In this document: positions 9,600 to 20,002 of the stretch, one piece after another
Layout: each line of letters opens with the position of its first letter
Numbering within the stretch: the first letter of the stretch is position 1
From: an uncultured bacterium
GTDB taxonomy: Bacteria > Verrucomicrobiota > Kiritimatiellia > RFP12 > UBA1067
NCBI GenBank assembly: GCA_902775595.1
Contig: CACYNF010000012.1
Coordinates: 1-40,725 of the forward strand
DNA: 40,725 nucleotides
Direction of reading: 5' to 3'
Notes under the pieces: model-generated
The model's input: only the letters and a program-made list of their open reading frames with translations
Told to the model about the DNA's origin: nothing
The model's database searches: none
Translations under genes and position numbers: made by a program

Positions 9600-12500
9600 T
9601 CACCTTATTTTCAAGGAGAATCCGGGCCTGCGACCGTAGCACAGCCATCCGTCGAACGTCGTAAAGAAGTGATTGCCGTCGTCGTCTTTCTCCGTTTCGT
9701 CGACACCTTCGAAAGCGGCGGCCTTGGCGATTCTGACGAACTTCTTGCCTTCCGCGATTTCCGGAACCGTTATGGACGCGCCGGATTCGAGTGAAATGGA
9801 GCCGGCGAACGTGACGCCAGTGGCGGAAAGAGTTGCGCCGCTCTTGATGACCGTGTCACCCATGTACTTCTGGTCGGCCGACACCGCGAGAGTCCCCTTT
9901 TCGACCGTGATGCCGCCCGCGCCGGCAAGCGAAGTCGTAACACCTATGCGCTTGTCGTTGACAAAGCTCACCCCGCCCGCGCCAAGAATGAACGGCACCT
10001 CCCCGCCAACGTAGCCGTCGATCTTGAAGTAGTCGTCCTGATCCTGGTCGCACTCGATGCGAACGCCATCAAGCATGGCCCTGAAGCTATTCACCTTGCC
10101 AGCAATGATGCCTCTCGCGTCGAGTTTGCCGCCGACAAGCTCGAAAACCGCCGACGATGCTGCGGGTACGTTGGCCCAGCCGCCGCTTCCTGCGCGGACG
10201 TACCCAGCCTTGAATTCGCCGTTTGTTATGTTAACCGTCGCGACCGCTCCTAGGCTGTCGCCAACAAGGTAGAAGTCGTGCCTGTTGACGTCAACCTTGC
10301 CGCCGTCGCCAAACATGCGCGCCGTGTTGCCGCTGCGCCCAAACTGGGTGTCGCAGTTGTCCGGATGGAACCGTCCGCCGTTCTGGAGTTCTATCGTCAC
10401 TTCGCTCACGCCGGAGCCGCTCGCGACATACACGCTCTCCTGGCTCGAATGGCTGTAGAGACGCGCCCCGTCTGCTATCTTCACGTGCATCTTCCCTTCC
10501 GAATCGCCGCGCGCGAAGTTGAGGACAGGACCGTCGGTGCCTTCTATCCTCACTTCCGTTCCGCTTCCGCACAGCGTGAAGCTGCCGTTCGGCGCGAAAT
10601 AGTGGTTGCCGGTGGCGATCTTGACGACGCCGTTCGTGAGCGTGAAGCCGTCGAGGGCGAACGTCTCGCCGCTTGTCGAAGACATCGTGACGGTCTGCGT
10701 CGCGCCGCCTAGATCGAGCGTGCCGGCGATTCTGAGCGAGTCCGATGCCGTCGAAAATGGATTCGTCTTCCCGCCGTCGTCCAAATCCTTCAGCCTGAAC
10801 CCACCCTCATTGAGCACAAGCCTTCCGCCAGGGCCCTTGCCGGCGACTGTGACTGTGCCTGCGCCGCCCTTGGTGATTTCCGTAGATGCGCCGGTAGTCA
10901 GTCCGCCGACGAACGCAATGTCGCCGCTGCCGCCAAGCCCGAGCGTCGCACCGCTGTCCCTGACTGCGCAGGCAAACCTCTGCACATTCGCCGAGTTGTT
11001 GGTCACAGCACGGACGTCGAGTCCATTTCCGCTTATCGCGAACTCACCGGCCCCCGCCGCGAAACGCACTCCCGAAAGGGTGAGGGACGCATAATCGTTG
11101 GATGCAGTTCCTCCTGCGGCAAGCGGGAATAAGACGCTGTCGAAGCCCTTGGGCCCTTCCCCGCCGGTCCAGTTGTCAGATGTCGTCATCAGCGTGTCGC
11201 CAGAAGCGTTGCTCCACGTCCGTTCGACTGGCGAGACAATTCCGTAGAGCTTCCCGTTCCTGACCTCGAGGTCAAGTCCGTTTATGGATATCTTCGCGAG
11301 GTCTGCGTCGGTCCAGCCTGTCTGTGCGGGGAAAAGGTCGAAATACTTGTTATGCTCGACGTCTACATCGTATGTGACGCTGACTACGAACGGGTTGTCG
11401 GCCGTCGCAGTTATCTCGCTGACCGTGACCGGGCAAAGGCCCGAAAACCCGTTCTCGCCATATGTGACAGCCATTGATCCGCCAGGAGCGAGCACAACGC
11501 CGGACGAGGCAAAGGTCTGCCCATTGAAATCAACCGGTCCTGCAATGGTAAACGCGCCCGTAAACTCCTGGCCGGCGCTGAACTTCAGCAGTCCGCCTCC
11601 GGTTTTGGTTAGCGCACCAGCTCCTTTCAGTGTGTCTGGCACGACGACGTCATGCTCGTTGGCAATCGTCAGGCCCCCGGCAGCGATCTCGAACGGCGAC
11701 ACGCCCCTTGATATGTCGTCGCGGCAGATGAACTCGGTGTGCTCGCCACTTGACTTGATCGTGGCGCCGTCGAACACGACTGTGGTCTCGTCTCGGTCGT
11801 CCCAGACTTTCAGGTTGCGCACAGTGACAACGCTATCCTTGCCAAAGTAGAGATGATACCATCCAGCACGCGATGCCGAATCATCATTGACCGCTCCTAA
11901 ATGCAGCCCCTCGCCCACCGAAAGCGATGCGCCGACGACGCTCAGTGCCGCCCGGAGCTCCTTTGCGTGCTTGGTTTTTTCACGTCCGAACGTGAAGTTC
12001 CTGCCGACAGACAACGCGGCGCCGTCTTTCACGTCAATATCTATCTGCGCCAAGTCAAGAACCTTCTCGTTTGAGGCGACGCAGTACAGATTGCCGGCGA
12101 ACGCCGCGTCGGCGCCATTAGTGACAGACAGCTTGAATTTGCCGGTTGAATTCGATTGCATCCAGGACGTGCCGCCGCCTAGGACAAGCCTTCCGCCATC
12201 GACACGAAGCTCGTAGTCTTCGCCATCCTGTGGAGTGTTTATCGATGCATACGTCGGTCCTGAGACGGTCGCGCCCTCGCCTATGGTCCAGAGGCGCGGC
12301 ATGTTGAGGCCAGGATCCAGTGGGTCGGCCGTATACGTGAACGTACCGTTGTAGTACGCTATCACGCCGTCAGCAGAAAGATCGCCCGCTGAAAAGCCAA
12401 GCGAACCGCCGCTCAGATCGAGGCCACCAGCCTCCAGAACAAGTCCTTTCTCCAACGGCTGCGTGACCTTGAGCGTACCCGCACCTTTCTTAACGACCTT

Positions 12501-15500
12501 GCCGCCAAATGGAGCGTCTACCGTGAGAGTCTTGCCTTCTGCGACAGTGATCGCCTCCGAAACCCTGAGGCTCGGCTGCTCGTCGACGTCGTATTCGATC
12601 TCCCACGTGCCTGCGAGCGCGCAGCGGACTTCGGTGGTGTTCTCGTTCACTTTCGCATCGAGTGTCACCCACGCACCCGCGTCCTCGTCGTATCCGAGAA
12701 CCTCCCAGCTGTACGGGTCGCGGCCTTGCTCGTCGTCCGCCGTGTACCAGCGGTAGCGCGTTAGCGCGAACGCATCTTCGTAGACCATGTCGATGTAGCA
12801 GTTGGCGCGCGCCTCCTCGCTCCTGCCGTTGCCGCCGCGGCGGTCGAGCCACTTCGTCGAAGTGGAGCCGTCCACCGCGTATCCGGGAGCCTCGCCGGAC
12901 GGGAAGTTTTCGTATCCGCTATAACTCGTCGTATCGTATTCGATGGACGAAGGCGATATCTTGGTCCACCCGCTGTAAAGTTCGATTTCCGACAGCTGCA
13001 TCATGTCGTTATTCGACTTCGTCCTCGATATGTGGAAACGGAACTTCTTGTATTTGGGCGTCGGATCGGTCCATTCGTCCGCCGTGATTCTGGCGTCTTC
13101 GTGTGCGGCGAGCGTGCCTACCGTGACAGCCTTGTCCAGCTTCACGGTGTCGGCCGCGTTCGTGAAAATCGCATTGTCGCCCGAGACGAACGTCTCGTCG
13201 GCGTTCTCGCCCCACACGGCGTCGGACCAGTTCGCGCCCTCGGTTCCGCCGCCGTACACCCTGTCTTTCGATTCATGGGTTATCGTTATGTCGCCGTCTT
13301 CGTCTATCCCTATAATGTATCCCTCCTCGGAGCATGTGAACTTCGCGGCATCTGAGGCGGAAAGACTGGTTCCTGTGACAAGCTTGCTGGCTTCGTTCAC
13401 GGGGAGTGCGGAAAGGACCTTCGGGGTGAACACGAACGGACTCTCAGCTGTCGCGTTCACCGTCACGTTCGATCCCGTGGCGACGGCGAATGCGTCAGAA
13501 CCTGAGGAGGAGACGTCGAACCTGAACGCGAAGCCCGCACCGAACGTCACGTCGCCCAGAGTGTTCGTCTCGACAGCGCCGTTGTCGAAGACGTGCATCG
13601 TGCCGCCGTTCAGCGAGAGCGAAATGGTTTCGTTCGTGAAGGTGGCGGACGAGAGGTTCATCGTGCCGCCGTTCATGACGATCGCTCCGGCGGCAAACGT
13701 TATTCCCGAAGACGACGTGTCGTTTATCGTGCCAGAGTCGCACTGCAACGCGCCGGTGAAATACTGGTCGTAGTATATGTCGATCTTGTCGGTGCCCTGC
13801 TTCACGATGCCGCCCGTGCCGCGCAAATGGCCTTTGAGGACTGTGTTGTGGTTGCAGACCACGGTCAGACCGTCGCCTTCGACGACGAACGGCGCGTCGT
13901 CACGCCTGTCCTGCATGAGGAAGTCCGAAGAGTTGGCGCGCGATTCGAACGTCGCCCCGTCGAACTTGATTTCGACGTTCTCCCGTTCGCGTCCGACGAA
14001 GATGCGCTGCGCCTTGACGTACGCCCCGTCCACGAATTCCGCCTTGTACCAGCCGCCGGAAAGCATCGCTGATTCGTCCCAGTATGTCGTGTTGGAGTAG
14101 TCGCTCTTGATGCCGAAGTCTATGCAGTCGGAAACAACCACGTTCGCGTTTGAAACGAGCATGTAGCCTTCCGGAGAAATGGCGAATTTCGTGTCTTTCT
14201 GCCCCCAAGAGAGGCGGCTGGCCATAGTAAGAGTTCCGCCGTCAGTGACAAGAAGGTCCGCGCGAGGATTCTGGCACTGCGAATCGTTTGACGGAATCAT
14301 GTATATTTCGCTGCTGCACGCGAACTCCGACCCTTCCCCGGTTATCTCGATGATCGTCTTGCCATAGTCGTGATGCTGGATGTAGTTGTTGTTCGAGCCG
14401 ATGACAAGCCGGCCGCCGTCTTTTATCAGCAGGTGGCATTTGCGGTCCGCCGATTCGGGAGAAAGAACGATCCTCGGGGCGCCCGTGAACACGGCTCGTG
14501 AGCCAATGACCCATTCCGCCGGGGCGTTGTCGCCGATCGTCCAGTTCTCGCTGCCCATGCTGTAGGTGCCGTTGTAGAATGCGACCGAGCCGTCCTTCGG
14601 CAGAATCGCGGTAGTGACGGAAAGCGAATTGCCGCCCAAGTCGAGTCCGCCCGCCTGCATGTCGATTCCGTTCGAAATGCCCGCCGAGGCGACGAGCGTC
14701 CCGGCGCCTGTCTTGGCGAAAGACGACACCGGTGCCATGCCAAGCGTAAGCGTCGTGCCTTCCGAAACTTCGATTTCGTCCGCCGAAAGCGTCGGCGAGT
14801 AGTCTATCGTCCAGACTCCGGCGCTCGCCTTTCTCTCCGACGTTGCCGTGAATCCGCTGCGGACGTCCAAGTCGACCCATACTGCCCCAGACGAATCCGG
14901 ATTGTCATTCGAGCCTTGCAACCTCCACGCGGCAGGGTCTCTCGCCTCGGCATCGTTAGCGGTGAACCATTCATACTTCGTGACCTGCTTTGGCTCGCGG
15001 AACCCGACCGCAAGCCACACGGCGTCGAGGCTCGCCGGCGACGAGCCGTCCTTGAGGCGCCTGTCGAGCCACTTTGTGTCATTATCTCCATCGACGAGCT
15101 TGTATGGCGCCTCATTATCAGGGTACTTTTCGTTGTCCACGTTCTTTGTAGATGAATCGAAGTACCGCTGGATATTCTCTTGTGTTATGTCCGTGTCGCC
15201 GCTGTAGAGCTTCAGCTCGGCGATCTGGACCATGCCGTTGTCATTGCCTTTGCGCCCCTCTATCTTGAAGCGAAAGTAAGTGTATGAGTTGGTCGTCGCC
15301 GCCTCGCCTTTGGAGATCGTCGTGGGGATGGAGGCGGAAATCTTCGCCGCCGTGACGTCCGTATCGACAGTCGCGCTGGCGGTTTTATCTCCGTAGTAGT
15401 CTGAGAACACGGCGTTGGCCCCGTCTTCGAAATAGTAGCCGTTGCCGATCCAGTTTCTGCCGCTCCATGCCGTGCTGCCGGATTGCGGATACCAAAACTT

Positions 15501-15575
15501 GTCGGACGCAAAGGCGCACGACGCGGCGACTAGGGCAAATGCAAGAACTGTCTTTTTCATAACTGTCTTTTTCAT
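9600..15575 (-). CDS. Giant exported beta-helix protein with two F5/8-type domains (autotransporter-repeat type)
   Basis: A 1991-residue exported protein built of three related units starting near residues 25, 770 and 1450. Each opens with a tryptophan-rich segment (WYPQSGSTAWSGRNW, GANWSDAVWG, TWSNASGDTLMTTSDNW) and continues into a repetitive beta-helix with GAGTL and GGLDLGGNSL turns typical of autotransporter-associated beta-strand repeats. Units 1 and 2 also carry a discoidin (F5/8 type C)-like domain, at about 95-260 and 840-995. Both share the core ELxLYSG...TKWLDRR, which marks a tandem duplication; unit 3 lacks it. No C-terminal beta-barrel is visible, and the chain ends in GFSLKIR. 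Such proteins are usually cell-surface or secreted adhesins or glycan binders. The start is ATG 15575, nine bases after AGGAGG; it is the first of two ATGs created by a 15-bp tandem duplication. Confidence 0.85.
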   Translation of the reverse strand: MKKTVMKKTVLAFALVAASCAFASDKFWYPQSGSTAWSGRNWIGNGYYFEDGANAVFSDYYGDKTASATVDTDVTAAKISASIPTTISKGEAATTNSYTYFRFKIEGRKGNDNGMVQIAELKLYSGDTDITQENIQRYFDSSTKNVDNEKYPDNEAPYKLVDGDNDTKWLDRRLKDGSSPASLDAVWLAVGFREPKQVTKYEWFTANDAEARDPAAWRLQGSNDNPDSSGAVWVDLDVRSGFTATSERKASAGVWTIDYSPTLSADEIEVSEGTTLTLGMAPVSSFAKTGAGTLVASAGISNGIDMQAGGLDLGGNSLSVTTAILPKDGSVAFYNGTYSMGSENWTIGDNAPAEWVIGSRAVFTGAPRIVLSPESADRKCHLLIKDGGRLVIGSNNNYIQHHDYGKTIIEITGEGSEFACSSEIYMIPSNDSQCQNPRADLLVTDGGTLTMASRLSWGQKDTKFAISPEGYMLVSNANVVVSDCIDFGIKSDYSNTTYWDESAMLSGGWYKAEFVDGAYVKAQRIFVGRERENVEIKFDGATFESRANSSDFLMQDRRDDAPFVVEGDGLTVVCNHNTVLKGHLRGTGGIVKQGTDKIDIYYDQYFTGALQCDSGTINDTSSSGITFAAGAIVMNGGTMNLSSATFTNETISLSLNGGTMHVFDNGAVETNTLGDVTFGAGFAFRFDVSSSGSDAFAVATGSNVTVNATAESPFVFTPKVLSALPVNEASKLVTGTSLSASDAAKFTCSEEGYIIGIDEDGDITITHESKDRVYGGGTEGANWSDAVWGENADETFVSGDNAIFTNAADTVKLDKAVTVGTLAAHEDARITADEWTDPTPKYKKFRFHISRTKSNNDMMQLSEIELYSGWTKISPSSIEYDTTSYSGYENFPSGEAPGYAVDGSTSTKWLDRRGGNGRSEEARANCYIDMVYEDAFALTRYRWYTADDEQGRDPYSWEVLGYDEDAGAWVTLDAKVNENTTEVRCALAGTWEIEYDVDEQPSLRVSEAITVAEGKTLTVDAPFGGKVVKKGAGTLKVTQPLEKGLVLEAGGLDLSGGSLGFSAGDLSADGVIAYYNGTFTYTADPLDPGLNMPRLWTIGEGATVSGPTYASINTPQDGEDYELRVDGGRLVLGGGTSWMQSNSTGKFKLSVTNGADAAFAGNLYCVASNEKVLDLAQIDIDVKDGAALSVGRNFTFGREKTKHAKELRAALSVVGASLSVGEGLHLGAVNDDSASRAGWYHLYFGKDSVVTVRNLKVWDDRDETTVVFDGATIKSSGEHTEFICRDDISRGVSPFEIAAGGLTIANEHDVVVPDTLKGAGALTKTGGGLLKFSAGQEFTGAFTIAGPVDFNGQTFASSGVVLAPGGSMAVTYGENGFSGLCPVTVSEITATADNPFVVSVTYDVDVEHNKYFDLFPAQTGWTDADLAKISINGLDLEVRNGKLYGIVSPVERTWSNASGDTLMTTSDNWTGGEGPKGFDSVLFPLAAGGTASNDYASLTLSGVRFAAGAGEFAISGNGLDVRAVTNNSANVQRFACAVRDSGATLGLGGSGDIAFVGGLTTGASTEITKGGAGTVTVAGKGPGGRLVLNEGGFRLKDLDDGGKTNPFSTASDSLRIAGTLDLGGATQTVTMSSTSGETFALDGFTLTNGVVKIATGNHYFAPNGSFTLCGSGTEVRIEGTDGPVLNFARGDSEGKMHVKIADGARLYSHSSQESVYVASGSGVSEVTIELQNGGRFHPDNCDTQFGRSGNTARMFGDGGKVDVNRHDFYLVGDSLGAVATVNITNGEFKAGYVRAGSGGWANVPAASSAVFELVGGKLDARGIIAGKVNSFRAMLDGVRIECDQDQDDYFKIDGYVGGEVPFILGAGGVSFVNDKRIGVTTSLAGAGGITVEKGTLAVSADQKYMGDTVIKSGATLSATGVTFAGSISLESGASITVPEIAEGKKFVRIAKAAAFEGVDETEKDDDGNHFFTTFDGWLCYGRRPGFSLKIR
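15546..15575 (-). repeat. 15-bp tandem duplication of the start codon and signal-peptide n-region
   Basis: ATGAAAAAGACAGTT occurs twice head to tail (15575-15561 and 15560-15546), so the protein begins MKKTVMKKTV. Either ATG can give a signal peptide. The Shine-Dalgarno AGGAGG at 15584-15589 is best spaced for the first. Confidence 0.95.
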
Positions 15576-15601
15576 AACTGCATTCCTCCTTGGCAACGCA
15601 A

Positions 15602-15636
15602 ATTATATCCTAAATCCACCGCCAGCGGAGAGCTGG
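15602..15636 (-). promoter_or_regulatory. Candidate promoter and operator of the mannoside/surface locus
   Basis: A perfect TATAAT lies at 15607-15602 on the minus strand. It would start transcription near 15595, about 20 nt before the start codon and just upstream of AGGAGG. No good -35 hexamer is visible. The -35 zone is occupied by a perfect inverted repeat, CCAGC-5 nt-GCTGG (15622-15636), which could be an operator for the GntR-LacI regulator of the locus. The promoter is inferred from motif and position, the operator only from position. Confidence 0.45.
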
Positions 15637-15670
15637 TGTGTACCACTTTTTTTGGAACTACTGCAATTTG

Positions 15671-15704
15671 TAGAAAACCGAGGTCGTGCGACCTCGGTTT
15701 TCTA
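15671..15704. terminator. Perfect 16-bp hairpin, terminator-like in both directions
   Basis: TAGAAAACCGAGGTCG and its exact reverse complement are separated by two bases (TG). The stem starts with a run of A and ends with a run of T, so RNA from either strand gives a GC-rich stem followed by U residues. It lies between the intron remnant and the promoter of the beta-helix gene and would insulate that operon from upstream transcription. It could also be part of the original intron target site. Confidence 0.6.
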
Positions 15705-15817
15705 TCGTTGGACAAAAGGGTGTAGAGTAGAGCGGGACGCCCCCGCAGGGTACGCCCGCTCGGCCTTCGGCTACCCTCAAAACGTGCTTCGCCGTTTTTC
15801 GGCGGATACCCCTCATC

Positions 15818-15850
<33 letters not shown>

Positions 15851-15872
15851 TCCGTGTGGGACCCGTAACGTG

Positions 15873-16235
15873 TCACTTCCGCCTCCATTGAAGCCAGTGC
15901 AGCCCCATTGCCTGTAGTTCTGAGTAGAAGTTCGGCGCATATTTCAAGCCATAGCCCCTTTGGCTCTTCCTGTTGAAATGAAGGTACAGGCGGTTTCGCA
16001 CGTACCAGTTCACCTTGTCAAACGCCTTCTTCGGATATCCGCATTGGAAGTAGTTTCCCCAGCCGACAAGTATCTTGTTGACCCTCTGCACAACTTCCTC
16101 GTTCTTCACGGGCTTGAAGATGCTTAGAGTCTGTTCCTCGACCTTCGCGCAAACCTCCTTGACCGATTTCATCGACGGGCCGTAGGTCAGGTAGTCTCTC
16201 CCTGTGCCATAGCGCCTGTCCTTGACATATCGGAA
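15873..16235 (-). pseudogene. C-terminal fragment of a group II intron reverse transcriptase/maturase
   Basis: About 120 codons remain, starting within the thumb/maturase region (FRYVKDRRYG, YLTYGPSMKSVKEVC) and running through ILVGWGNYFQCGYPKKAFD, WYVRNRLYLHF and GLHWLQW to a normal stop just upstream of domain V. This is the usual C-terminus of intron-encoded proteins in the class whose product ends before domain V. All reverse-transcriptase catalytic motifs are absent. Similarity is lost upstream of 16235, and the frame meets a stop near 16285. An 8-bp inverted repeat (GCCTGTCC 16214-16221 / GGACAGGC 16243-16250) brackets the broken end. It is a 5'-deleted, immobile relic. Confidence 0.82.
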
Positions 16236-16304
16236 ACTTGAGGGACAGGCCCCACGAAAGGCCCATTTTTCAAGGGGGTTGCGTTTCTATTCTCCGGGCA
16301 ACGC

Positions 16305-16811
16305 TCATGGCAGCAGTGCCAGCAGCTTCGCAATCTCCTTCTGGTCGCGGGTGGAGTAGGAAGTGACGCGACGGCCGAGGCAGTTGATGGGCGAGCCAAG
16401 GCCGTGCAGCTCGATGTTGTCGGATTTGGAGAATCACGGATGGATGATGGTTGTGTCGAAATCGTTCATGGATTCGACACGAAGGATGGTTGTGTCGTGG
16501 GTGTTTGCCAAGCGCGGGATCGTCCGTTTGGCGGATTCGGGCGGCTGGAATGTGATGGGATAACAATTGAGGCGTGGCTGTGATTGGCTCGCGGTTGCGT
16601 GGCGGTTGAAGGACGGATGAAGATTGGTTGAGGTTCCCGATGGTTGGCGCGGGGTTGGAAAGCGGTTGTGTAGCGGTTGAATTAGCGTTGAGGTAGCCGA
16701 AAGGCGGGCGGCTCGGTCGCCTGACGCCTCCCCCGCAAAGGGGGCCGCGCCTGCGGGTGCAACGAGATATTTATGCAGAGGCAATAGTCTCTGCACAGAC
16801 CATGCTGGCAT
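16305..16811 (-). pseudogene. Unrecognised decayed reading frame with an in-frame TGA
   Basis: One frame is open from 16811 down to a TGA at 16436-16434 and, in the same frame, for 42 more codons to a TGA at 16307-16305. The last 42 codons (FSKSDNIELHGLGSPINCLG, then RRVTSYSTRDQKEIAKLLALLP) read like real protein. The region before the internal stop is rich in Pro, Asn and Gln because of a degenerate CAACC repeat and may be partly noncoding. I recognise no family. It could be a gene remnant interrupted by a nonsense mutation, or chance. Confidence 0.25.
16446..16497. repeat. 13-bp direct repeat around a 10-bp hairpin
   Basis: GATGGTTGTGTCG occurs at 16446-16458 and again at 16485-16497. Between and overlapping the copies, GTGTCGA(A)ATC pairs with GATTCGACAC (16453-16480) around a 7-nt loop. 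The following 200 bp carry many degenerate GGTTG units. No function is evident. Confidence 0.6.
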
Positions 16812-16825
16812 GTCTGGCGCTACGC

Positions 16826-16852
16826 GCGGCGCCTACCGGCGCGGACCACGAA
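16826..16852 (+). repeat. Left copy of a 27-bp inverted repeat
   Basis: This 27-bp sequence beginning GCGGCGCCTACCGGCGCG recurs in inverted orientation at 17396-17422 with one mismatch (G versus A). Each copy is itself a small hairpin (GCGCC-TACC-GGCGC), as in REP-type repeats. The pair brackets 543 bp without a recognisable gene. No target duplication is visible outside the repeats. Confidence 0.75.
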
Positions 16853-16854
16853 AA

Positions 16855-17023
16855 CGCGGCGCATCTGACGCGCGGCTGGCGCCGCTTGAGACGCCGCGAC
16901 GACGCCGTGGCCTGAAGGTCGCGCGGTGGTCCCGTCGGCTTTAACGGGGACTGCTCTGCCCAGGCGACCTTCGCCCGTCGCCGCCGCGTCGTCTCGACCT
17001 TCGGCCTGCGTCAGATGCCCGCG
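16855..17023. other. 169-nt long imperfect palindrome, candidate structured RNA or repeat core
   Basis: Five nested pairings share one axis. They are CGCGG 16855-16859 with CCGCG 17019-17023; CATCTGACGC 16862-16871 with GCGTCAGATG 17008-17017; GAGACG 16888-16893 with CGTCTC 16990-16995, continuing imperfectly inward; GAAGGTCGC 16914-16922 with GCGACCTTC 16964-16972; and GTCCCGT 16929-16935 with ACGGGGAC 16944-16951 around the loop CGGCTTTA. RNA from either strand would form one long interrupted hairpin. No known RNA family signature (RNase P, tmRNA, SRP, 6S) was recognised. It lies inside the 27-bp inverted repeats. Confidence 0.55.
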
Positions 17024-17395
17024 TCACGAAAACCTGCCTGCGCAGGGCACGAAATGACACAAAAGAAGCCTTGTTTTTGGCGCATATTCGAAGGAGATTG
17101 TCAGACTGTGGGCAAACTGACGCCTTTGATTTTTGTGAAGCCCGCGCGAAGTATCGGGTTGGCGAAGTGAGCCGCGAAGCGGAGCCCGCGTGGGCGTTTT
17201 CGTGCGCCGCTTTAGGCGGCTTTCGTGTCACGGGGCTTGCCGAGAACCGCAGGTTGGAATGGCGGGCGACGTTTGACGAAGGTCGTCGGAAAACAGAATG
17301 CCAAATGAGTGTCTCGAAATATCCCATCCGACCTTCAAGTCAAAACGGCGACGCGACATTCCAGCGGCGGAACGCCGCGAGGCAAGCCGCCGTGG

Positions 17396-17422
17396 TTCGT
17401 GGTTCGCGCCGGTAGGCGCCGC
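17396..17422 (-). repeat. Right copy of the 27-bp inverted repeat
   Basis: Partner of the copy at 16826-16852, with 26 of 27 positions matching in inverted orientation. The 17024-17395 stretch between the long palindrome and this repeat also holds short hairpins (for example GCCGC-TTTAG-GCGGC around 17210-17224). Open frames there occur on both strands, but none has recognisable protein character. Confidence 0.75.
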
Positions 17423-17518
17423 ATCAGCGGCAAACACACATATACGCCAATATATGCGCAATGCGCAAAAGCCATCAATTTCCTGGTTCCTTGCATAAAT
17501 CGCCCGTTGCACCCCGCG

Positions 17519-17555
17519 CCTGCGGACCCGCAGATTTCGCGCTTGCGGGCGCAGG
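17519..17555 (-). terminator. Strong hairpin after the phosphatase/kinase gene, possible terminator without a T run
   Basis: CCTGCG-GA-CCCGCA (17519-17532) pairs with TGCGGG-CGCAGG (17544-17555) around an 11-nt loop, giving a 12-bp stem with a 2-nt bulge. It starts 15 bp after the stop codon at 17571. The minus-strand sequence after it has no T tract, so it would be a weak or factor-assisted terminator, or an mRNA 3' end stabiliser. Confidence 0.4.
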
Positions 17556-17570
17556 CAAGGACGGCCACCG

Positions 17571-19676
17571 TCACGCAGACAGGACGACCGAGAGGATGTT
17601 GCGGCCGTGCGAGCGGCGGTAGGCGATCGAAGAGGCCATTCTCTTGACCATGAAGATGCCGAGGCCGCCGATAGGCCGCTCCGCCGCGGGAAGCGTCGTG
17701 TCTGGATCGGCGTGCGCAAGGGGATCGTAGGCATCGCCGTCGTCGATGAACGTCAGTCTCACGCCGAGCGGCGTCTCAACGATCTCTATGTCGACCTCGA
17801 AGCCGGCGGCGTTGGAGTAGCGCACGATGTTGGAGCACATTTCGTCGAGTATCACGTGCAGCGACGGCAGAAGCGGCGAAAGCTGCTTGTCGCGCAGCTC
17901 CTCCCTGCCGATCGTCTCGTCGAGGAACTCCGACGCATTGGCGACGCCTTCCTGCCGCGGCGGGAACTTGCGCGAGTACAGCTTGGGCGGCTTAAGGTAG
18001 CGGACGGCCATCACGGTTATGTCGTCGGCCTGCGGCATCCCCTCGGAGAACGCCGCGACCACTGTGCGGACGACGCCGCAGATAGCGTGCGGATCTGGGT
18101 CGGTCACGGCGTTCAGCGCGTCGAGCAGCCGCTCCTCGCCGAACAGCCCGTTCTTCGCATCCGTGGCCTCGGTAACGCCGTCGGTGTAGAGGAAGAGAGT
18201 CCCCCCCGGCGGAAGACGCATAGTGCGCGCGGCGTACTTGACGCCGTCGATGAACGCGAGGACCGGGCCCGACGTCTTCCGCACGAAGGCGGCCGACTTC
18301 GGCCCCGCGATGGCGACGGGCGGGTTGTGGCCAGCGTTTGCGAAGGTAACCACCCCCGTCTCGAGATCGAGAACCCCGACCCACGCCGTGAGGAACATCA
18401 TGGCGGGGTTGTTGGCGCAGAGCTCGGCGTTCGCCTCGGTGAGCGCCGCGGCCGGGTCTCGCACGGCGAGGAGCGTGTTCTTTATGAGCGTCTTCGCCGT
18501 CATCATGTAGAGCGCCGCGGTGACGCCCTTTCCCGACACGTCGGCGACGAGAAAGGCGATGTGCGTCGCGTCGAGGACGAAATAGTCGTAGAAGTCGCCG
18601 CCGACATCGCGCGCCGCGTGCATCGCGGCGTCTATCCTGAAGCACGGGCTCTCGGGCGCAGCGGTCGGCAGAGCGGAGTTCTGGATCGTCTTCGCGATCT
18701 CCATGTCCTTCGCGCGGCGGTCGTCCTCGGCGGCATAGAACTTCTTGAGCCTGTCGGAGTCGCGGAATATCCTGTCCAGCAGAATCGCGAACGCGCCGAG
18801 CACCACGAGGAAGGTCACCCCGAACACGACGGCGAGCATGTTCCGCCCGCCGTAGTACTCGCGCTCCGGCAGCGCGGCGACGAAGCGATGCCCGCCGAAC
18901 AGAAAAGCCCGGCAGAAGCACTTCTCCCCGAAAAGCGTCTGGACGAACGTCCTGCCCATGTTCTTCCCGTCGGCGACCACCTCGTACCGCCTGGCGCCTT
19001 CGGTGTCGTAGCCCGCCTCGGCGAGCGTGCGCGCCTCGCCGCGGTGCCGCGACGGATTTGATATGAGGCGCCCGGTATCCATGTCGGCGCACAGGAAAAA
19101 GCCCTTCTCGCCGAGCAGCCATTCGTCGAATATGTAGCCGAGGATCGACGGCAGCATCTTCTTCAGCCGCGACTCCTCGAGCCCGACCTGCACGTACCCG
19201 TCGCCGCCGGGAAACGCCGCGGCGAGGTACTTGGCCCGGAAATTGGGATTGCGGGCGTGCGCCCTGAACGGCTGCGAGACAGTCGCCGTGACTCCGTTCG
19301 TGAGCTCCATGAATTCGTTCAGCACGGGAGAGGCGGTCATGTCCACGCCGATGCTGCGGGGGTCGTTCGAGGCGATGACGATGCCTTCGCGGGAAACCGT
19401 GCTGACCTCGTCAATGTCGAGCTCCTTCGCGCCGGCGGCCATCCGCTCCAGCGACATCACCTGCGCGCTGCCTATGTGCCGCACGGCCGTGCGCGCAATG
19501 TGCCCGAGCATCGTGTCGATCGCACCTGCGACGGTGTCGTGCAGATTCAGGACCGCGTAGTCGAGCTGCGTCTGCGTGTTCTCCTCGGCCTGCCTCGTGC
19601 TGACGATCCACGTCACGGTCATGAGAACCGTGTAAAGCGCGGCGACTCCACCGAATATCAACAGGCGACGGCTCAT
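17571..19676 (-). CDS. Membrane sensor with fused PP2C/SpoIIE phosphatase and HATPase kinase domains
   Basis: A 701-residue partner-switching regulator. TM1 is at about 5-26 and TM2 at 280-303, with a 250-residue extracytoplasmic sensor (dCache-like) between them. A PP2C/SpoIIE-type Ser/Thr phosphatase spans about 350-558, with its metal-binding motifs DVGGDFYDYF, VADVSGKGVTAALYM, NAGHNPP, LYTDGVTEA and QADDITVM. Residues 575-700 form an anti-sigma-factor-type histidine-kinase-like ATPase, with DEMCSNIVRYS as N-box (E611, N615), IDDGDAYDP and GGLGIFMVKRM. Such proteins dephosphorylate and phosphorylate a STAS antagonist, and the STAS gene lies 5 bp upstream in the same operon. Having both activities in one chain is less common than separate RsbU and RsbW proteins. 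The signal sensed and the sigma factor controlled are not in the window. Confidence 0.92.
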   Translation of the reverse strand: MSRRLLIFGGVAALYTVLMTVTWIVSTRQAEENTQTQLDYAVLNLHDTVAGAIDTMLGHIARTAVRHIGSAQVMSLERMAAGAKELDIDEVSTVSREGIVIASNDPRSIGVDMTASPVLNEFMELTNGVTATVSQPFRAHARNPNFRAKYLAAAFPGGDGYVQVGLEESRLKKMLPSILGYIFDEWLLGEKGFFLCADMDTGRLISNPSRHRGEARTLAEAGYDTEGARRYEVVADGKNMGRTFVQTLFGEKCFCRAFLFGGHRFVAALPEREYYGGRNMLAVVFGVTFLVVLGAFAILLDRIFRDSDRLKKFYAAEDDRRAKDMEIAKTIQNSALPTAAPESPCFRIDAAMHAARDVGGDFYDYFVLDATHIAFLVADVSGKGVTAALYMMTAKTLIKNTLLAVRDPAAALTEANAELCANNPAMMFLTAWVGVLDLETGVVTFANAGHNPPVAIAGPKSAAFVRKTSGPVLAFIDGVKYAARTMRLPPGGTLFLYTDGVTEATDAKNGLFGEERLLDALNAVTDPDPHAICGVVRTVVAAFSEGMPQADDITVMAVRYLKPPKLYSRKFPPRQEGVANASEFLDETIGREELRDKQLSPLLPSLHVILDEMCSNIVRYSNAAGFEVDIEIVETPLGVRLTFIDDGDAYDPLAHADPDTTLPAAERPIGGLGIFMVKRMASSIAYRRSHGRNILSVVLSA

Positions 19677-19681
19677 CGGAG

Positions 19682-20002
19682 CTACCGCTGCGGAGCACCC
19701 TGGCCCTGGACGATTTCGAACACGCCGCTCAGGCCCGTCATGTCGAGAACGCCCATGACGATGCTGTTCGGGTTGACGATGACGACGCTGCCGCCCGTCG
19801 CCATGACGGTCTTCTGCACGGACATGAGGACGCGCAGCCCTGCGGAGGATATGTATTCAAGCTCCGAAAAGTCGAACACGACGCTCGACACTCCGTCGCA
19901 CGATAGCTTGTCGGAGAGCTCCGGCGAGGTGTTTGTGTCGAGACGCCCCGCAACCTTCAACGTCAGCTTCCCGTCCTCAAGTTTACTGTCGATCTGAATC
20001 AT
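19682..20002 (-). CDS. STAS-domain anti-anti-sigma factor
   Basis: A 106-residue single-domain protein of the SpoIIAA/RsbV type. It has the strand-helix pattern of STAS proteins, with VAGRLDTNTSPEL near the start and the phosphorylation loop LEYISSAGLRVLMSVQK, where the conserved serine (about S52-S53) would be phosphorylated by a HATPase anti-sigma kinase and dephosphorylated by a PP2C phosphatase. Both activities are encoded by the next gene, 5 bp downstream. The 11-nt leader carries no clear Shine-Dalgarno sequence. Its likely role is to release a sigma factor, or another kinase partner, when unphosphorylated. Confidence 0.92.
   Translation of the reverse strand: MIQIDSKLEDGKLTLKVAGRLDTNTSPELSDKLSCDGVSSVVFDFSELEYISSAGLRVLMSVQKTVMATGGSVVIVNPNSIVMGVLDMTGLSGVFEIVQGQGAPQR

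Follow-up and report, generated by a model that had tools for sequence, protein, structure and literature searches.

The window, by which we mean the whole stretch of DNA that was analysed (40,725 nucleotides), contains a 760-bp element with a G+C content of 61% near the 3' end of a gene. The element and its parts are as follows.

16746..16754, no strand: left target-site duplication (TSD) CGCGCCTGC, identical at 9/9 positions to 17515-17523 and present as a single copy at the empty site
16755..17514, no strand: whole non-autonomous, MITE-like transposon of 760 bp, defined by its terminal inverted repeats (TIRs) and its TSD, with the exact empty site preserved in two relatives
16755..16777, plus strand: left TIR GGGTGCAACGAGATATTTATGCA, 23 bp, pattern search with 0 mismatches to the motif
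16826..16852, plus strand: left arm of an inner inverted repeat (GCGGCGCCTACCGGCGCGGACCACGAA), repeat search, 27 nt, 96% complementary
16852..17032, plus strand: hairpin unit H1, which contains the reported palindrome; found by its fold, by a covariance model match (this copy is in the training set) and by alignment with pair counts
17033..17219, no strand: core between H1 and H2; blastn against the core of the contig 41 copy shows the two in opposite orientation
17033..17046, no strand: small hairpin CCTGCCTGCGCAGG between CACGAA linkers (sequence; linker pattern search)
17207..17219, no strand: small hairpin CCGCTTTAGGCGG between TTTCGTG linkers (sequence; linker pattern search)
17220..17397, minus strand: hairpin unit H2, inverted homologue of H1 in the right half of the element (nhmmer seeded with H1 alone; covariance model match)
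17396..17422, minus strand: right arm of the inner inverted repeat, partner of 16826..16852 (repeat search)
17492..17514, minus strand: right TIR GGGTGCAACGGGCGATTTATGCA, 23 bp, pattern search with 1 mismatch to the motif
17515..17523, no strand: right TSD CGCGCCTGC, identical at 9/9 positions to the left copy and single at the empty site

To the right of the element the minus strand carries, within 17571-20002, a 701-aa ORF that by eye resembles a SpoIIE/RsbU-type phosphatase with a C-terminal ATPase-like domain, adjoined by a 106-aa ORF (19682-20002) that by eye is STAS-like. To the left, at 16600-16745, lies another dispersed repeat, which includes a stretch resembling the end of ribosomal protein L15 (..GGCGGGCGGCTCGGTCGCCTGACG) and is also found in contigs 30, 58, 13, 128 and 179 and near several contig ends. 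Further left are a group II intron remnant, consisting of an Rfam RF00029 match (15722-15852, minus strand) and a maturase C-terminal fragment (Pfam GIIM, 15873-16172, minus strand), and a repetitive minus-strand ORF of 1998 aa (9600-15596), autotransporter-like in appearance.

The 169-nt palindrome of the original prediction, 16855-17023, is real and non-random. It folds as a single long arm with the apical loop CGGCTTTA, and the folding energies, -100.9 kcal/mol on the plus strand (z -5.0) and -109.4 kcal/mol on the minus strand (z -7.3), were matched by 0/200 shuffles on either strand, so that the proposed comparison of minimum free energy with shuffled sequence favours the structure in both orientations. 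The coordinates were about right, the homologous unit defined by the covariance model match being 16852-17032. Folding likewise confirms the one long arm, but two short lateral hairpins on the H1 arm, GCGGC..GCCGC on the 5' side and one around CCTTCGG on the 3' side, were missing from the stems first listed. The predicted extent covers part only of a larger structure: outward of the palindrome lie the inverted arms 16826-16852/17396-17422 and 16755-16777/17492-17514, and the region 16715-17560 folded whole with DNA energies gives a z of -9.2 (20 shuffles).

The object at 16755-17514 is a MITE, with TIRs, a TSD, an empty site, dispersed copies and no transposase gene. When the window flanks were joined with one TSD copy and searched for in the genus, two loci (G040:C125 and G042:C170) matched at 382/382 positions; there the right flank is 99.8% identical over 1.7 kb, the left flank about 97-98%, and the element is missing. 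The exact empty site and the near-identical flanks in these relatives therefore indicate that the window insertion is recent. Exact 9-bp TSDs of different sequences also border two other copies, L084 (GATGTAAGG) and L092 (GCGGGAGAG); a search for the empty site of the L084 copy returned partial flank matches only. A few TIR-bounded copies show no recognisable TSD, and the recognised terminal repeats were not found in several copies (the G009 set), which have the left repeat and one hairpin. A six-frame search of 16755-17514 for a transposase gene yielded nothing but overlapping ORFs, none longer than 168 aa and several of them crossing the element ends. A coding function of the hairpin unit (H) was rejected because its copies differ by indels of 1-3 nt, and a search for phage DNA found none. 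The terminal repeats, the target duplication and the empty site thus show that the palindrome, put forward as a candidate noncoding RNA, belongs to a transposable element as one of its internal arms.

In a congener, an insertion sequence is flanked by the same terminal repeats. This IS (G024:C17) is 1784 bp long, each of its TIRs has 1 mismatch to the motif, and the open frame containing its 413-aa ORF matches ISKra4 (NF033572, E 1e-58) as well as Pfam UPF0236; the NF033572 score of 199.3 bits lies just below the NCBIfam curated cut-off of 205. The window TIRs match this ISKra4-like IS, and in this the element resembles the ISKra4 family (prokaryotic Mutator-type p-MULT 4 elements); it differs in encoding no transposase and in its interior, which is unrelated by blastn. 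Since the element has no transposase gene and none of the ISKra4 type was detected in the host's own assembly (86% complete), we infer that it is mobilised in trans by an ISKra4-type transposase such as that of G024. The lack of a detected ISKra4 transposase in the host assembly counts against this and leaves present mobility in the host genome unexplained; we therefore claim kinship of the termini only, and no source in the host genome. Several ISKra4-group elements have been reported to insert upstream of sigma-A promoters (PMC3942029). Many other copies of the present element lie near TATAAT-like motifs in intergenic DNA.

Copies were detected by blastn in 28/61 congeneric genomes. The hairpin covariance model matches 21/162 genomes of the order, in 4/33 genera and with a patchy distribution, and gives 6 hits in the host's own genome. 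Rumen and gut Kiritimatiellae/Lentisphaerae assemblies are among the named records that carry the hairpin's flanking motif; an exact-pattern scan of genome contigs also gave single-site matches in unrelated actinobacteria, proteobacteria and other groups. Starting from H1, iterated nhmmer retrieved 42 full-length units of 174-187 nt in the fetched loci, and all ten loci that hold two full-length hairpins have them in the order H(+) then H(-).

Each H unit consists of an outer stem, then the lateral hairpin of the 5' side with GCGGC..GCCGC, a middle stem, the lateral hairpin of the 3' side (in most copies CCTTCGG), an inner stem built from GAAGGTCG..CGACCTTC and, at the apex, a region that varies. 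On the minus strand, loop counts show that the 3' lateral hairpin usually closes with C-GNA-G, and such triloops are unusually stable in DNA. The smaller hairpins that follow the H unit are separated by CACGAA linkers in the left half and by TTCGTG linkers in the right half, and the two kinds of linker are able to pair with each other. A search for CACGAA-N-CACGAA (45 hits) revealed no separate hairpin arrays, and most hits outside the element family look unrelated.

A covariance search in related genomes had been proposed as a further check, and it found homologues with abundant compensatory changes. In the H alignment 97.6% of cells are standard pairs, compared with 30-49% when the partners are slid by 1-3 columns. 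Double changes occur in 21/42 pairs, a number reached by 0/500 shuffles, although the alignment rows are related copies and the double changes are not independent events. The apical loop is barely alignable. Compensatory changes had been expected to support a functional RNA; alone they cannot separate RNA from DNA hairpins, but a wobble test can. Over 41 consensus pairs in 42 copies, 97.0% of the combinations are Watson-Crick, 0.8% are G·T, 1.2% are A·C and 1.0% are of other kinds. RNase P RNA from 30 congeners, counted identically, has 12.0% G·U and 0.9% A·C. It was chosen as the control because the small SRP RNA (RF00169) was found in none of 59 genomes (the window genome and 58 congeners), although controls were detected; strict filters or divergence of the SRP RNA could account for the missing hits. 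On the reverse strand RNAalifold selected 46 pairs with 2.0% G·T and 0.6% A·C, far under the RNase P level; this asymmetry is weak and arises partly from RNAalifold picking different pairs. Because G·T is as rare as A·C, unlike in RNase P RNA, the H fold appears to be conserved either on both strands or as Watson-Crick DNA, in the form of a cruciform or a hairpin of single-stranded DNA. Two readings thus fit the wobble data: either the DNA itself folds, or hairpins are required in RNA of both orientations.

H1 is an arm of a 760-bp transposase-less element of rumen and gut Kiritimatiellota-type bacteria, and together these results make it probable that an ISKra4-type transposase moves the element in trans and that its hairpin stems are selected as DNA and not as a one-strand RNA. 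The element interior is a tree of hairpins, with the large opposed H1 and H2 and the smaller, linker-separated ones. The selected form may be a cruciform or a hairpin of single-stranded DNA, as could form on an intermediate of replication or transposition, and such a DNA fold would help the element to move or persist. That H is a structured noncoding RNA of one strand, carried and spread by the MITE, seems very unlikely. The strong covariation, the oriented homology, the absence of coding potential and a weak promoter-like site that reads into the element from the right would agree with it. Against it stand the covariation itself, which lacks the G·U tolerance typical of one-strand RNA and shown by RNase P RNA in the same genus, and folding energies that are alike on both strands in most copies. 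Likewise, the earlier remark that no standard RNA family fits is borne out by Rfam, which gave no match over the element at the gathering threshold and, at E<=1 over five homologous loci, only two sub-threshold hits at chance level. We consider it unlikely that H works at the RNA level, forming a hairpin in transcripts of either orientation and serving as a bidirectional attenuator, an RNase III site or a stabiliser of mRNA 3' ends, roles reported or proposed for other bacterial MITEs, which are known to affect co-transcribed mRNAs (PMC10969869, PMC3049150). Constraint on both strands predicts exactly the observed dearth of G·U and A·C, and copies are often intergenic; however, H is not followed by a T tract, the number of terminator-like sites in the region is close to chance (3 vs 1.6 +/- 1.4), and the fixed head-to-head pairs of hairpins are not readily explained.

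Functionless copying of one arm onto the other, by template switching or palindrome correction, might also keep up the pairing in a cruciform-prone element. The predominance of Watson-Crick to Watson-Crick changes speaks for this, as do internal segments inverted between copies, which point to recombination within the palindrome. Such copying should not by itself slow divergence of the stems, yet the apical loops of copies with identical paired columns differ by 12%, and where the stems show 1-4 differences the loop differs by 44% and the remaining unpaired sites by 18%. The stems are thus slower to diverge than the loops; the poor loop alignment inflates the loop divergence and makes the size of this contrast uncertain. 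Over all copy pairs, the mean number of double changes rises from 0.5 to 12 with stem divergence while single-side changes stay at 1.6-3.0, and at 1-4 stem differences single-side changes exceed double ones (1.62 vs 0.49), which also counts against such copying. The asymmetric lateral hairpins persist as well. Purifying selection on the H fold is therefore favoured, and we regard arm-to-arm copying without function as unlikely. A more specific form of selection on folded DNA can be offered tentatively, as a possibility that we rate well short of probable: H would be a folded-DNA signal recognised, when extruded or single-stranded, by some host or element protein, and the head-to-head pair would build a branched DNA tree for mobility or maintenance. 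Equally tentative is the fixed shape that such a signal would have, a main stem with two lateral mini-hairpins, one of them usually C-GNA-G on the minus strand.

The modules of the element differ in arrangement between copies. Between the cores of the window and contig 41 copies blastn gives two matches on opposite strands, of 85 nt (88%) and 32 nt (94%). An insertion common to three species (L021, L088 and L087) carries the other hairpin type on the left in L087, where the right side is changed too. The inverted cores and the swapped hairpin type indicate that modules are apparently rearranged by recombination inside the palindrome. L021 and L088 hold an orthologous insertion in two species with a nearly identical left flank and a clearly diverged right flank, which suggests recombination at the element.

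Bacterial MITEs such as ERIC, the Correia elements, RUP, QMITE2 and Nezha are likewise short and without transposase, have TIRs and TSDs, are mostly intergenic, fold strongly and have termini matching an IS of a relative (PMC10969869, PMC3049150). They are typically smaller and AT-rich with simple folds, in contrast to the size and G+C content of the window element, its two large opposed homologous hairpins and its linker-separated small ones. Pneumococcal BOX elements share modular repeats and extensive secondary structure (PMC3049150); their boxA/boxB/boxC modules are by description distinct from paired inverted hairpins with CACGAA linkers. Within the literature library searched, no paper joined MITE, ISKra4 and hairpin, and none joined Kiritimatiellota-type bacteria and miniature inverted elements. 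We found no earlier description of this structured MITE family, which is unusually elaborate. The window hairpins can be likened to the DNA hairpins of REP/BIME repeats and integron attC sites, in which shape is better conserved than sequence; they differ in their flanking motif, CACGAA.

The family supplies a natural data set: in more than 40 copies the hairpin stems covary as strict Watson-Crick pairs, free of RNA-type wobble. Palindromic mobile DNA can thus show covariation that passes wrongly for functional RNA, and the frequencies of G·U and A·C, judged by an RNA control, distinguish the two. Should the hairpins prove necessary as DNA, this family would offer a tractable bacterial transposon in which to study a folded-DNA signal. 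Two contigs assigned to two other species (L291 and L292) match the flanks within window positions 15064-19232 at 97-99.8%, which suggests recent transfer or shared or misbinned contigs.
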